From Hirudinaria manillensis (lineage: Eukaryota; Annelida; Clitellata; Hirudinida; Hirudinidae): 64,000 nt of DNA. Every line of letters starts with the position of its first letter. Position 1 is the first letter of the stretch. Positions 10,285 through 46,245 of this stretch are shown one piece after another. Location: NCBI GenBank assembly GCA_034509925.1, contig CM067534.1, positions 5,833,501-5,897,500 of the forward strand. Reading direction: 5' to 3'. The notes below the pieces were generated by a model, which saw nothing but the letters and a program-made list of their open reading frames with translations, did no database searches and was not told the origin of the DNA. A program made the translations under genes and the position numbers.

Positions 10285-10387
10285 ATGATTGAGTTCAAGC
10301 GACTTTGGACCAATCTCTTTCAACCAAAACTGGTTGGCCTGGTCGTTCTTTTATGCTCATATCCAATTGAAGGCCAACTTAATCCAG
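10285..10387 (+). other. Collagen exon 1: start codon and signal peptide, GC donor
   Basis: The ATG at 10285 opens 34 codons: a basic N-region, a hydrophobic core (LVGLVVLLC), then a polar stretch ending EGQLNP. This is a classic cleavable signal peptide, with likely cleavage near IEG|QL. The exon ends CCAG|gcaagt. Only this GC donor, joined to the acceptor at 10525, keeps the next exon in Gly-X-Y frame (NPG-PTG). The GT six bases in would put exon 2 out of the collagen frame. An ATG five bases upstream is closed after two codons. Confidence 0.85.
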
Positions 10388-43300: not shown

Positions 43301-46245
43301 TTTATAACATTTGGGCCCGTAAACAGGTTCTAGCATTGTTTATGTCATTTTGTTATGGCGATATTTTATTTATTTTATTTTAGGTAACCAAGGACCTTCC
43401 GGCTCACCTGGACCTGTCGGTGACCCCGGTCCCACAGGTATCTCTGGCCCAATTGGACCTGTAGGACAGCCCGGCCCACTTGGACCTCAAGGAATGAAAG
43501 GCAGTACTGGTCCCCAAGGAAATGCAGGGCCGAAAGGAAGTATTGGTCCCCAAGGCCCTCAAGGTCAACAGGGTCTACCCGGACTTCCAGGATTCACAGG
43601 CGCCTCTGGTCCTCTCGGACCACCTGGATCTATGGGCTTACCAGGTGCAACCGGCGACAGTGGAAACACCGGAGCCACTGGATTGGTTGGTGATGCCGGC
43701 CTTCAGGGTCCGCTCGGACCTCCAGGACCTACGGGCGATACAGGTGTACCTGGCGGAATTGGAGCCCTAGGATCGCCAGGAAATCCAGGGCCTCAAGGAC
43801 AAAGAGGAGCAACAGGGAATACTGGTTCGACTGGATCTCCAGGTCAACCTGGTTTTAACGGCCAACAAGGACCTCCAGGCGGCACCGGTGCTACGGGTCC
43901 TACAGGTCTCCAGGGTATCAAGGGCCCTCTCGGACAACTAGGACAGAATGGATTGCCAGGACTTCCTGGACCTTCAGGCTTACCTGGACCATCTGGACCT
44001 TTAGGACAAGAAGGGGATAGAGGGCCACCTGGCTCCCTTGGTCCAACCGGCCCGTCTGGCCCTCAAGGCCTTCGAGGTGATCCTGGTTCTCCAGGCGCCA
44101 TGGGACCCATAGGTCCTCCAGGAATCACCGGTTCACCTGGTATCCAGGGTGAAATTGGAAACACTGGTGCTACGGGAATGTCTGGATTACCAGGAAATAC
44201 TGGAAGTACTGGTTCTACAGGTTTCATGGGTCCTCCTGGAAGTGTCGGTTTGGCAGGTACTGCTGGCCTTCCCGGAGATTCAGGCCCGATTGGTTTTCAA
44301 GGGCAACCCGGTCAAAGAGGTCCCCCAGGACCTCCTGGAGCAACAGGGGTCACGGGCTCTTCGGGTCCGTCTGGTCCAAATGGACAACAAGGGCCTCGAG
44401 GACCTCCAGGTCCTTCGGGAGCCACTGGGGGGAAGGGTCCCATAGGGCCTCAAGGATTTGTTGGGGGGCCAGGAAGCCCCGGTCCGATAGGTCCCATTGG
44501 TGTGCCAGGATTCCCAGGACCAGGTGGACCAATGGTAAGCATTGAGTATTTTGATTATTAATTTTAAAAAGTTAATATTAAACTTACTAGTTAATAATTG
44601 ACTGCTTTAATAAATTCAAATAAACATAGCCTCAATTTCAGTTTGAACATTTTCACATAACTCTTCGATGAGGCAATAATGCGCGTTTATTCTCTGCTAA
44701 TGATAAAAAAAAAAGGAAATCTTAGATTATTAATGTATTTAAATATGTAGGGACCCAATGGAGCTCAAGGTGCTACAGGACCTTTAGGTGCGCCAGGAAC
44801 TCTAGGACTTCTGGGCCAGCCCGGACCTCTGGGGCCGCAAGGAGTAACTGGTCCTGCAGGACCTATCGGGCCTCCTGGAAATCCTGGGCCACCTGGTCCT
44901 CCAGGGGCTAGAGGAAATTTTGGACCTCAAGGAGCCACGGGATCGCCTGGAAGTCAAGGTTCACTAGGCCCTATAGGATTTAGAGGACCCCTAGGTGCAA
45001 CCGGTGCGACGGGCTCGGACGGAGGGCAGGGAAGTACGGGTCAGATCGGTGCAACAGGTGGTACCGGATATACCGGTGACACTGGAGATACAGGACCGCA
45101 AGGAAACACCGGACCTATGGGACCGTCAGGTTATAAGGGACCTTCGGGTGCAACCGGATATTCAGGAGTTGCTGGTCCGGTGGGTGCAATAGGTGAGCTA
45201 AATATTAATTCGAGTTATTTGAAATATTCAAACCATTTAAAAATATTTATTCTATTGAAAACATCGTTTAGGGAGTCCCGGACAACCCGGACCGAGAGGA
45301 CCTAATGGAGCAGACGGTGCCCCCGGTCAGCCCGGAAATACGGGTCCTATGGGCATGCCAGGCAACACGGGCGTAATGGGTCCAGCCGGACAATATGGAG
45401 AGAATGGCCAAACAGGTAGCTAAGAGCATGCATTGTGACTGAAAGTACCTTTTACTGAAAATACGGCGCATTCCGTTATCAGGACCGACCGGCAATCCGG
45501 GTAGTCAAGGTCTGCCTGGTTATCAGGGTTGGACCGGTTCGTCTGGTTTCACCGGTTCGACGGGTCTCAGGGGTCCAACTGGAAGGACTGGAGCCACTGG
45601 ATTCACAGGTCCAACTGGAGTGAAAGGACCACGAGGAATGTCAGGGAGACCCGGATTGTCAGCTTTAGGTAAGCAGTAGGATTTGACTAATTAATTTCAA
45701 TCATTATTGATATTTCTGAGGCACAGTGCGTTTGTTGGTCACGACCAATATCTTGATTTGTTTGGAGATATTTAAACTCAAAATATAATTTCTATTTAAG
45801 CCCTCGAGGGAGGCATGTACAACATGAAAGAAGAATTGACGAAAGATTCCGAAGAAATAGAAAACATAAAGTCAGGAGTCAATTACCTCCTGTACGGAAT
45901 AGGAAGCTGGTTGGCCCTGATGACGATCTTATCCACGACCGTGTTCATCGTTGCTAACCTCAGACTCAACAAGGCTTTCAAAGCTTTGGACGAGATCGAT
46001 ATTTCTCCTCCTTCAAGTTCCACCAAACAAAAAATTAAACCGGCTCGCACGAAAGCACCCTTCTCGTCCGTCAGGATAAGAAAACTTCGCCGCACTGTCC
46101 GCCCAGGTAACCATGCTCGATCGTCAGGGTGCACGTGTTTCAGTTTTCATGCAGAATTATTTTTTTTTTTAAAGTTCACAGGGGGCAGTCAACAAACATC
46201 CCAACAGAGGTTCACGACAGGTCATCAGGAATGACTGAAGTCTAA
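10285..46245 (+). CDS. Giant transmembrane collagen, ~8,814 aa, 66 exons
   Basis: One gene fills 36 kb. Order of parts: signal peptide (exon 1), about 2,885 Gly-X-Y triplets (exons 2-64), a short polar heptad-like segment, one transmembrane helix and a basic tail (exons 65-66). Exon lengths sum to 26,445 nt. Almost all introns split the Gly codon after its first base (G|GN); the exceptions are exon 40/41 (phase 2) and 61/62 (phase 0). Every collagenous exon is a multiple of 9 nt unless it contains a visible break in Gly-X-Y. There are 11 such breaks, 7 of them in exons 3-9. I found no cysteine in the triple-helical part, no fibrillar C-propeptide and no C4/NC1 domain. N-terminal signal plus C-terminal helix implies type I topology, unlike collagens XIII, XVII, XXIII and XXV (type II). 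Threonine-rich Y positions and the predicted helix length near 2.5 micrometres suggest an annelid-style cuticle collagen; this is inference. Final splice and stop are uncertain (46234 or 46245). Confidence 0.9.
10526..15359 (+). other. Collagen exons 2-9: N-terminal helix with most of the interruptions
   Basis: Exons 10526-10678, 10743-11096, 11156-11494, 11560-11898, 11979-12593, 12658-13101, 13591-14310, 14454-15359. Interruptions: GPQSFNPG (exon 3), GNQPG and GSPAASQG (exon 4), GFSPTG (exon 5), GSQPG (exon 6), GNQPG (exon 7), GTAQQG (exon 9). Three of them share the form G-(N/S)-Q-P-G, a one-residue insertion. Exon 7 has a poor polypyrimidine tract before its acceptor, and exon 8 a weak donor (gttcgc); both are chosen because they preserve frame. 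The intron at 13102-13590 is 489 bp and holds nothing I recognise. Confidence 0.88.
15439..20920 (+). other. Collagen exons 10-22: threonine-rich helix
   Basis: Exons 15439-15807, 15868-16092, 16260-16607, 16788-17012, 17081-17242, 17302-17490, 17652-18227, 18322-18420, 18827-19312, 19467-19718, 19785-20027, 20218-20478, 20633-20920. The only interruption is GPQING in exon 12. Triplets such as [12 protein letters not shown] and GQT dominate: in exon 18 I count Thr in Y in 25 of 54 triplets. An RGD lies at 19544-19552. Exon 17 is the shortest helical exon (99 nt). Confidence 0.88.
21007..29951 (+). other. Collagen exons 23-38: long uninterrupted helix
   Basis: Exons 21007-21447, 21516-22028, 22113-22553, 22688-23200, 23304-23510, 23637-23825, 24025-24537, 24615-25406, 25744-26004, 26122-26301, 26392-26670, 26848-27540, 27610-27948, 28019-28477, 28620-28907, 29079-29951. 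The only break is GVG in exon 35. Together with exons 13-22 this makes about 2,700 residues of perfect Gly-X-Y before it. An RGD lies at 29273-29281. The first four exons alternate in length 441, 513, 441, 513. Confidence 0.88.
29970..30570 (-). mobile_element. 5'-truncated non-LTR retrotransposon (LINE) remnant in collagen intron 38
   Basis: The 683-bp intron at 29952-30634 holds, on the minus strand, an open frame from about 30570 to 30253. Its translation looks like the C-terminal end of a LINE ORF2: ..[11 protein letters not shown].., then HSYFLRN, then [20 protein letters not shown], matching the usual pattern of a Tyr-His helix, H(N/S)Y.TR and F(S)I.Y.GP..WNSLP. It is followed by about 250 bp of possible 3' UTR and an A-rich tail (T-rich run 29970-29993 on plus). 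The orientation, A tail and missing 5' end fit a truncated insertion. I could not identify target-site duplications. It is antisense to the collagen gene. Confidence 0.7.
30635..38316 (+). other. Collagen exons 39-50
   Basis: Exons 30635-31525, 31601-31805, 31930-32129, 32562-33029, 33123-33707, 33774-33926, 34262-34711, 34825-36003, 36202-36795, 36975-37337, 37494-37727, 37858-38316. Exon 46 is the longest (1,179 nt, 131 uninterrupted triplets). The exon 40/41 junction is phase 2 (CCA-GA|gtaaga ... ctaag|G-GGT) and rebuilds G-P-E-G-E-A. The one interruption is GSNQNARG in exon 48. RGD sits at 35883-35891 and 37250-37258, and a GFTGER hexapeptide, close to the integrin-binding GFOGER motif, at 32750-32767. 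Confidence 0.88.
32270..32423. repeat. 51-bp tandem repeat, three near-identical copies, in a collagen intron
   Basis: Three copies start at 32271, 32322 and 32373 (period exactly 51), each beginning ctaactaat and containing the direct repeat gacatgacatgat. Near identity points to recent expansion. It lies in the intron between exons 41 and 42. Confidence 0.95.
38426..45668 (+). other. Collagen exons 51-64: proline-rich membrane-proximal helix
   Basis: Exons 38426-39199, 39267-39410, 39563-39868, 39983-40693, 40850-41137, 41203-41526, 41590-41841, 41934-42284, 42549-42791, 42996-43289, 43384-44534, 44751-45192, 45272-45415, 45483-45668. The exon 61/62 junction is phase 0 (ATG|gtaagc ... gtag|GGA). 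One interruption, GVAAVG, lies in exon 60. Exon 61 is dominated by GPx and GxP triplets; only 24 of about 128 triplets have Thr in Y. RGD occurs at 41044-41052 and 44073-44081. The helix ends ...GRPGLSAL. Confidence 0.88.
45801..46245 (+). other. Collagen exons 65-66: heptad segment, transmembrane helix, cytosolic tail
   Basis: Exon 65 (45801-46106) joins in phase 1 and reads ALEGG, then a charged stretch of about 25 residues with hydrophobic residues spaced like a short coiled coil (MKEEL...I..I...V.YLL). A roughly 23-residue hydrophobic helix ([20 protein letters not shown]) follows, then about 65 residues rich in Lys/Arg (RIRKLRR), fitting a cytosolic side. The last exon is ambiguous. The acceptor at 46174, after a T-run, gives a stop at 46243-46245; an acceptor at 46181, or no splicing, gives a stop at 46232-46234. 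All versions end in a short polar tail. Confidence 0.75.

Follow-up and report, generated by a model that had tools for sequence, protein, structure and literature searches.

What molecule is built from a 66-exon gene that spells out an almost unbroken collagen sequence? The gene in question occupies positions 10285..46245, on the plus strand, of the 64,000-nucleotide stretch of DNA analyzed here (the window), which is part of contig C9 in a whole genome of 148.4 Mb and 23 contigs. We consider it very likely that this gene encodes the middle chain of a giant collagen heterotrimer of the ABC type in an annelid, most likely a leech, and that the molecule is most likely cuticular. A gene on contig C3 would provide the leading chain (C3b) and one on contig C5 the trailing chain (C5), with the window chain itself called C9. 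The computations yield three length-matched chains, one preferred trimer, and one stagger that persists along most of the length.

The gene was modelled with a splice-aware Viterbi procedure in which introns were limited to GT/GC-AG. This returned the same 66 exons and 8,814 in-frame codons that a preliminary description, made from the letters of the window, had counted, with the last exon remaining tentative. The first exon (10285..10387) encodes a signal-peptide-like N-terminus, has a GC donor, and passes in phase 1 into the first exon of glycine-led (Gly-X-Y) triplets. The 63 Gly-X-Y exons (10526..45668) carry 8,653 collagenous residues, comprising 2,876 triplets and 11 breaks that are 1-4 residues long and total 25 residues, in close agreement with the roughly 8,650 residues and 11 short interruptions proposed earlier. 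These 63 exons splice without a stop, and 8,689 codons in all are stop-free. Before splicing, 72 Gly-X-Y runs of at least six triplets (8,751 residues) can be read on the plus strand across 10.5-45.7 kb, and there are none of this length on the minus strand of the window. The next exon (45801..46106) encodes a polar stretch, a hydrophobic helix with a hydropathy of 1.93, and a basic tail, and is a predicted membrane anchor. The tentative last exon (46175..46245) has an uncertain acceptor, and alternatives end at 46172, 46234 or 46238.

A collagen helix rises 0.286 nm per residue, which for 8,653 residues gives a calculated length of 2.475 µm, as the earlier estimate of near 2.5 µm had it. Fibrillar collagens, with about 1,014 helical residues, likewise have a long Gly-X-Y helix, but the window chain is about eight times longer, is broken 11 times, and is without the COLFI C-propeptide. 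The 23 COLFI matches in the genome all lie outside the window, which bears out the reported lack of fibrillar propeptides. The threonine content singled out in the preliminary description is also evident, since threonine (Thr) fills 27.2% of Y positions versus 3.1% of X positions.

The window chain has paralogues elsewhere in the genome. A collagen search was made in which 150 of 1,264 candidates were scored, and the resulting list is therefore a lower bound. Five further long collagen loci were retrieved, and together with the window gene they form two trios. The long trio comprises C9 (8,653 Gly-X-Y residues), C3b (8,652 residues; contig C3, 9.66-9.69 Mb), and C5 (8,649 residues; contig C5, 3.89-3.93 Mb, minus strand). 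The short trio comprises C1 (5,172 residues), C2 (5,188 residues), and C3a (5,189 residues; contig C3, 4.26-4.28 Mb). Threonine is abundant at Y in every chain, at 24.9-29.8% in the long trio and 36.1-40.7% in the short trio. Four breaks are common to the long chains, at residues 1249/1245/1245, 4259/4256/4253, 6541/6538/6535, and 7994/7990/7987 of C9/C3b/C5. These matched chains, the shorter second trio, and the predicted C-terminal membrane helix go beyond what the preliminary description could see in one window.

Intron positions connect the members of each trio. Introns were called matching when they lay within 12 nucleotides of each other, and 2,000 random shifts per chain pair served as the control. 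By this measure 56 of 58 C3b introns match a C5 intron, and the 62 window introns include 43 that match C3b and 41 that match C5, with random shifts giving at most 11 in each comparison. When intron sites of the long trio are clustered, with neighbours at most five residues apart, 77 sites result, 42 of them common to all three chains, 15 to a pair of chains, and 20 confined to a single chain. Because all three paralogues have so many sites in common, and because phase 1 is found in 60 of the 62 introns that separate the Gly-X-Y exons of the window gene, the gene model is independently supported. In the short trio, 18 of 21 C2 introns match C3a, and once C1 is moved by a constant 16 residues relative to C2 and 17 relative to C3a, 14 and 17 of its 37 introns match (shifted controls, at most 3).

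Repetitive genes are prone to misassembly, a caution voiced in PMC12403961, and the span might then hold several separate genes or an assembly artefact. We give this almost no credence, given the stop-free reading and the fact that three contigs agree within four residues and have matching introns. Ungapped comparison of X and Y residues in 400-residue windows revealed no consistent offset among the long chains and identity at background. With introns that match and X/Y identity at this level, it appears that length was held while sequence drifted. A MAFFT alignment of the long trio was dropped in favour of the intron register, as it contained many gaps and made only 10 of 166 intron sites common to any two rows.

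How chains of equal length might recognize each other is suggested by their charges. As defined in PMC12533406, residues on adjacent strands pair axially when Y of triplet n contacts X of triplet n+1, and laterally when the Y and X concerned have the same triplet number. Given the one-residue stagger, contact between the third strand and the first should come one triplet later. We scanned lysine (Lys) or arginine (Arg) at Y against aspartate (Asp) or glutamate (Glu) at X, at offsets from -45 to 45, for all 36 ordered pairs of the six chains, self-pairs included. The strongest ordered pairs form two rings, C9 to C5, C5 to C3b, and C3b to C9 for the long trio, and C2 to C1, C1 to C3a, and C3a to C2 for the short trio. 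Each of these pairs has two main offsets three residues apart, which shift by one residue past some of the breaks. Added up around a ring in the main register, the axial offsets come to 12 (3+3+6) and the lateral offsets to 3. The long ring closes at 12 in all seven segments from residue 745 to 7985. The short ring has five bins past residue 460, of which four close at 12 and one at 15, and its five earlier segments hold too few charges for a call.

The extent of pairing was then counted with offsets fitted piecewise and compared with 589 shifted controls. In the long ring, 200/227, 201/221, and 201/224 basic Y residues are paired (controls at most 53, 44, and 47), and in the short ring 93/139, 80/135, and 74/117 (controls at most 34, 28, and 24). 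Pairs that mix a long chain with a short one reach 13-21 of 117-227. The pairing also has a direction. From the window chain toward C5, 132 of 142 lysines stand axially opposite Asp, whereas toward C3b at most 16 of 142 do so. This matters for an explanation in which the pairing is inherited rather than functional, with ancestral Lys-Gly-Asp motifs of which different paralogues kept different halves. The chains are indeed paralogues with common introns. However, inheritance predicts pairing in both directions, and it sits poorly with the lack of a consistent offset at the other X/Y positions. We regard this explanation as highly improbable.

A second test required no fitting. Common introns alone fixed the position of each chain, and Lys-Asp axial pairs were counted for each of the 27 ways to place the chains as leading, middle, and trailing strands. 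For the long trio, the order C3b leading, C9 middle, and C5 trailing pairs 344 of 381 lysines, and the runner-up 161 of 328. For the short trio, C1 leading, C3a middle, and C2 trailing pairs 134 of 226, and the runner-up 61 of 211; this result is of the same kind as that for the long trio, but weaker. Two-chain trimers and other chain orders, scored among the 27, fell short of the best ABC arrangement. Because chains placed by introns yield the dominant Lys-Asp order, the intron register and the charge register agree. The sequences, then, predict an ABC heterotrimer, with three different chains in one preferred order and stagger.

The same scoring speaks to the idea that each gene forms its own homotrimer and that equal length reflects the packing of different molecules in one lattice. 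Equal length alone would be compatible with this, and when Lys and Arg are pooled against Asp and Glu, the long chains do pair with themselves at 70-78 of 221-227 residues (best offset pair), above most shifted controls. Reverse-order pairs in the long trio, at 42-52 of 221-227 (best offset pair), also exceed most shifted controls. We suggest, as a conjecture, that both excesses come from charged zones common to the three long chains. For Lys-Asp alone the counts are far lower, with reverse pairs at 2-16 of 93-146 in the long trio and homotrimers, placed without fitting, at 7-21 of 93-146 (long) and 2-6 of 69-84 (short), versus the ABC counts given above. We see very little chance that homotrimers are the true products.

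The chemistry of the pairs in the predicted heterotrimers is selective. In the long trio, Lys-Asp axial pairs number 349 of 377 versus 21 expected, whereas asparagine (Asn), Glu, and phenylalanine (Phe) are not favoured opposite Lys (Lys-Asn 14 versus 17 expected, Lys-Glu 3 versus 8, Lys-Phe 0 versus 23). Arginine behaves differently, with 110 lateral Arg-Glu pairs versus 6.4 expected and 75 lateral Arg-Asp pairs versus 16. Arg-Phe pairs are frequent in the axial geometry (53 versus 17 expected) and rare in the lateral one (5 versus 17), and the interchain ladder also holds axial pairs of Arg with tyrosine. In model peptides, axial cation-pi pairs running N to C are stabilizing and lateral ones destabilizing (PMC12086834). 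The short trio has 159 of 214 Lys-Asp axial pairs versus 10 expected, 41 axial Arg-Phe pairs versus 14, and 22 lateral Arg-Glu pairs versus 4.6, and shows no enrichment of lateral Arg-Asp pairs (8 versus 7.7). Certain combinations are avoided in both trios. In the long trio there are 66 lateral pairs of Thr at Y with proline (Pro) at X where 278 are expected, and in the short trio 44 where 198 are expected; axial Thr-Asp pairs number 9 versus 127 and 16 versus 93, respectively. The Thr-Pro avoidance is perhaps due to a sugar on threonine, although this is a guess.

Synthetic collagens offer a precedent for this arrangement. In designed ABC peptides, axial and lateral pairs set the order of the chains, as predicted here (PMC12533406). 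Unlike those peptides, the chains described here are natural, and the long molecule as predicted would hold about 350 Lys-Asp axial pairs.

The ends of the chains suggest where assembly might begin. All six genes have, 3' of the collagen domain, an exon that encodes a predicted membrane helix followed by a basic stretch. The helices were called from hydropathy as the best 19-residue mean, which ranges from 1.93 to 3.26, and the exons of the short trio were assigned from position and strand. In the long trio the junction between collagen and membrane exons is in phase 1 through an alanine codon (modelled for the window gene, by eye for C3b and C5). When the membrane exons of C9, C3b, and C5 were searched against the genome at E up to 10, each found itself and nothing else. 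Other domains accompany some of the chains. With query pieces joined by hand, C3b and C5 have VWA matches on their upstream side (5.7e-8 and 5.1e-25, respectively), and EGF-type matches lie between the collagen and the membrane helix in C2 and C3a, which the C-terminal region of C1 resembles by eye. For the window chain, no VWA-like exon was seen by eye among open reading frames of at least 25 residues in 7001-10400, where no family search was made.

A membrane helix that adjoins a collagen domain is also found in the MACIT collagens XIII, XXIII, and XXV (PMC4678570). However, MACITs are type II proteins with an N-terminal membrane helix, whereas the helix predicted here comes after the collagen domain, in chains of far greater length. 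The signal-peptide-like start and the predicted topology of the window chain do not fit the MACIT definition, with some small room left for an uncleaved N-terminal helix.

The next question is in which animal, and in which tissue, such a molecule would be used. The erythrocruorin linker family PF16915, which we take to be annelid, has 8 matches in the genome, 7 of them over the cut-off, and none in 14 control genomes. There are also 63 matches to antistasin repeats, which we take to be characteristic of leeches. Because of these two sets of matches we consider the genome to be annelid and leech-like. The COI protein, too, resembles that of leeches by eye. The antistasin matches are mostly on contig C2, many of them at 1.72-1.78 Mb, a local expansion. 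As a separate matter, a COX1 copy on nuclear contig C9 (3026446-3027786) scores exactly as the copy on C23 (31-1371), a 15.6-kb mitochondrial-looking contig, which points either to a recent transfer to the nucleus or to a fault in the assembly.

Annelid cuticle collagens have helices of about 2.4-2.6 µm. Studies by Gaill in 1995 and Mann in 1996 reportedly dealt with such proteins of about 2.5 µm. Annelid cuticle collagens are also described as having a very long helix, globular domains, high mass, and much threonine, which is glycosylated in Riftia (PMC11766948). The window chain shares the very long helix and the richness in threonine, a comparison by description only. Its threonine-rich Y positions could carry galactose, a feature predicted for an annelid cuticle collagen. 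Giant collagens are known at the gene level as well, for the cuticle section of PMC12403961 lists alvinellid chains of 7,719-8,859 residues and one in the earthworm Eisenia andrei, and the same section finds none of that length among siboglinid gene predictions. Like the window chain, these have a long Gly-X-Y domain, comparable length, and an annelid host. Thus, the earlier proposal of a candidate annelid cuticle-collagen gene gains support from the annelid markers and from printed collagens of similar length. The preliminary description had held that a source without such a cuticle, together with no annelid homologue, would speak against it; what we find is an annelid genome and giant annelid collagens already in print.

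The placement in the cuticle is suggested by the long cuticle collagens of other annelids. The same heterotrimer could instead serve connective tissue, the sucker, or the cocoon, and, with two trios present in the genome, cuticular use of one would not imply the same for the other. We consider a tissue other than the cuticle unlikely, given that the length and the threonine-rich Y positions fit the cuticle collagens described in PMC11766948 and that long annelid collagens are treated under cuticle in PMC12403961.

Besides the self-pairs and reverse-order pairs, several observations weigh against a cuticular ABC heterotrimer with one continuous register. The gene model and the trimer are predictions from genome sequence, and the tissue is an extrapolation from other annelids. 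The alvinellid and earthworm giants are much richer in proline, with G-P-Y at 0.33-0.40 and G-X-P at 0.22-0.33 (PMC12403961, cuticle section), versus 13.5% of X and 19.8% of Y in the window chain. The membrane helix is a hydropathy reading and is weakest in the window chain (1.93). Breaks in the first 750 residues differ among the long chains; C3b and C5 have one at 3203 that the window chain lacks, and only C3b has one at 5191. The break at 1533 and the early breaks of C9 are peculiar to that chain. Lastly, the first three segments of the long ring (740 residues, with 0-4 basic residues per pair) have best-fit offset sums of 10, 10, and 46, and for the last segment the best fit is 9 rather than 12. 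The first 740 residues carry too few charges for a register to be assigned there.

The window holds other features as well. A glycosyltransferase family 11 match (PF01531, 1.9e-23) is on the plus strand at 6397-7134, 3 kb upstream of the collagen gene. Downstream are two C2H2 zinc-finger stretches on the opposite strand (47327-49171), GTP_EFTU and EF-G_D2 matches on the plus strand (52241-54101) that by eye belong to a mitochondrial IF-2, and a GRIP-domain coiled-coil gene on the minus strand (56396-57310). At 61.8-62.5 kb there is a long translated Leu-Thr-His-Ser repeat, by eye a simple tandem repeat. Among other collagen loci in the genome, L001, L002, L004, and L005 have 258-459 Gly-X-Y residues in the stretches of about 3.2 kb that were read, and one on C12 has 285 in 10 kb. 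Loci on C13, C2 (9.45 Mb), C1 (9.09 and 10.80 Mb), and C3 (11.20 Mb) fell outside the Gly-X-Y reading.

Taking both trios together, we think it likely that the genome encodes two giant heterotrimers, of 2.47 and 1.48 µm, and that the sequence alone reveals, over most of each molecule, which chains combine, in what order, and with what stagger. The Lys-Asp axial ladder, lateral pairs of Arg with acidic residues, and axial Arg-Phe pairs would make up the register code, the other X and Y positions would mostly drift while length stays frozen, and assembly would be seeded at C-terminal membrane anchors. As we picture it, the chains would enter the endoplasmic reticulum, where their C-terminal membrane helices would hold them; the triple helix would nucleate next to the membrane and fold from the C-terminal end toward the N-terminal end. 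Partner and stagger would be selected by the Lys-Asp ladder, and threonines at Y, probably galactosylated, would stabilize a helix that is poor in proline. VWA domains on two of the three chains may form a globular N-terminal end, and the product would be deposited in the cuticle, whether or not a protease releases it first. At its boldest, and speculatively, this scheme would have the ladder of Lys with Asp (or Asn) become covalent isopeptide cross-links in the mature cuticle.

What is known, then, is that annelids have collagens of this length; what appears to be new is the predicted heterotrimer, with its charge register and membrane tails. Searches of the open-access literature, a body of work that leaves most subscription papers outside, turned up no account of register, sets of three matched chains, or membrane tails in giant annelid collagens, and the cuticle section of PMC12403961 makes no mention of partner chains, register, or membrane tails for the alvinellid and Eisenia giants. 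The choice of partner and stagger by natural collagens is hard to observe, and here it is apparently written in sequence over thousands of residues, by pair rules that match those of designed peptides at a natural scale. If true, this would provide the genes, the partners, and the register for a very long protein helix, and would explain why length has been kept within four residues in about 8,650 across three genes despite drift. It would also open a route to models of the annelid cuticle and offer a template for very long designed fibres.

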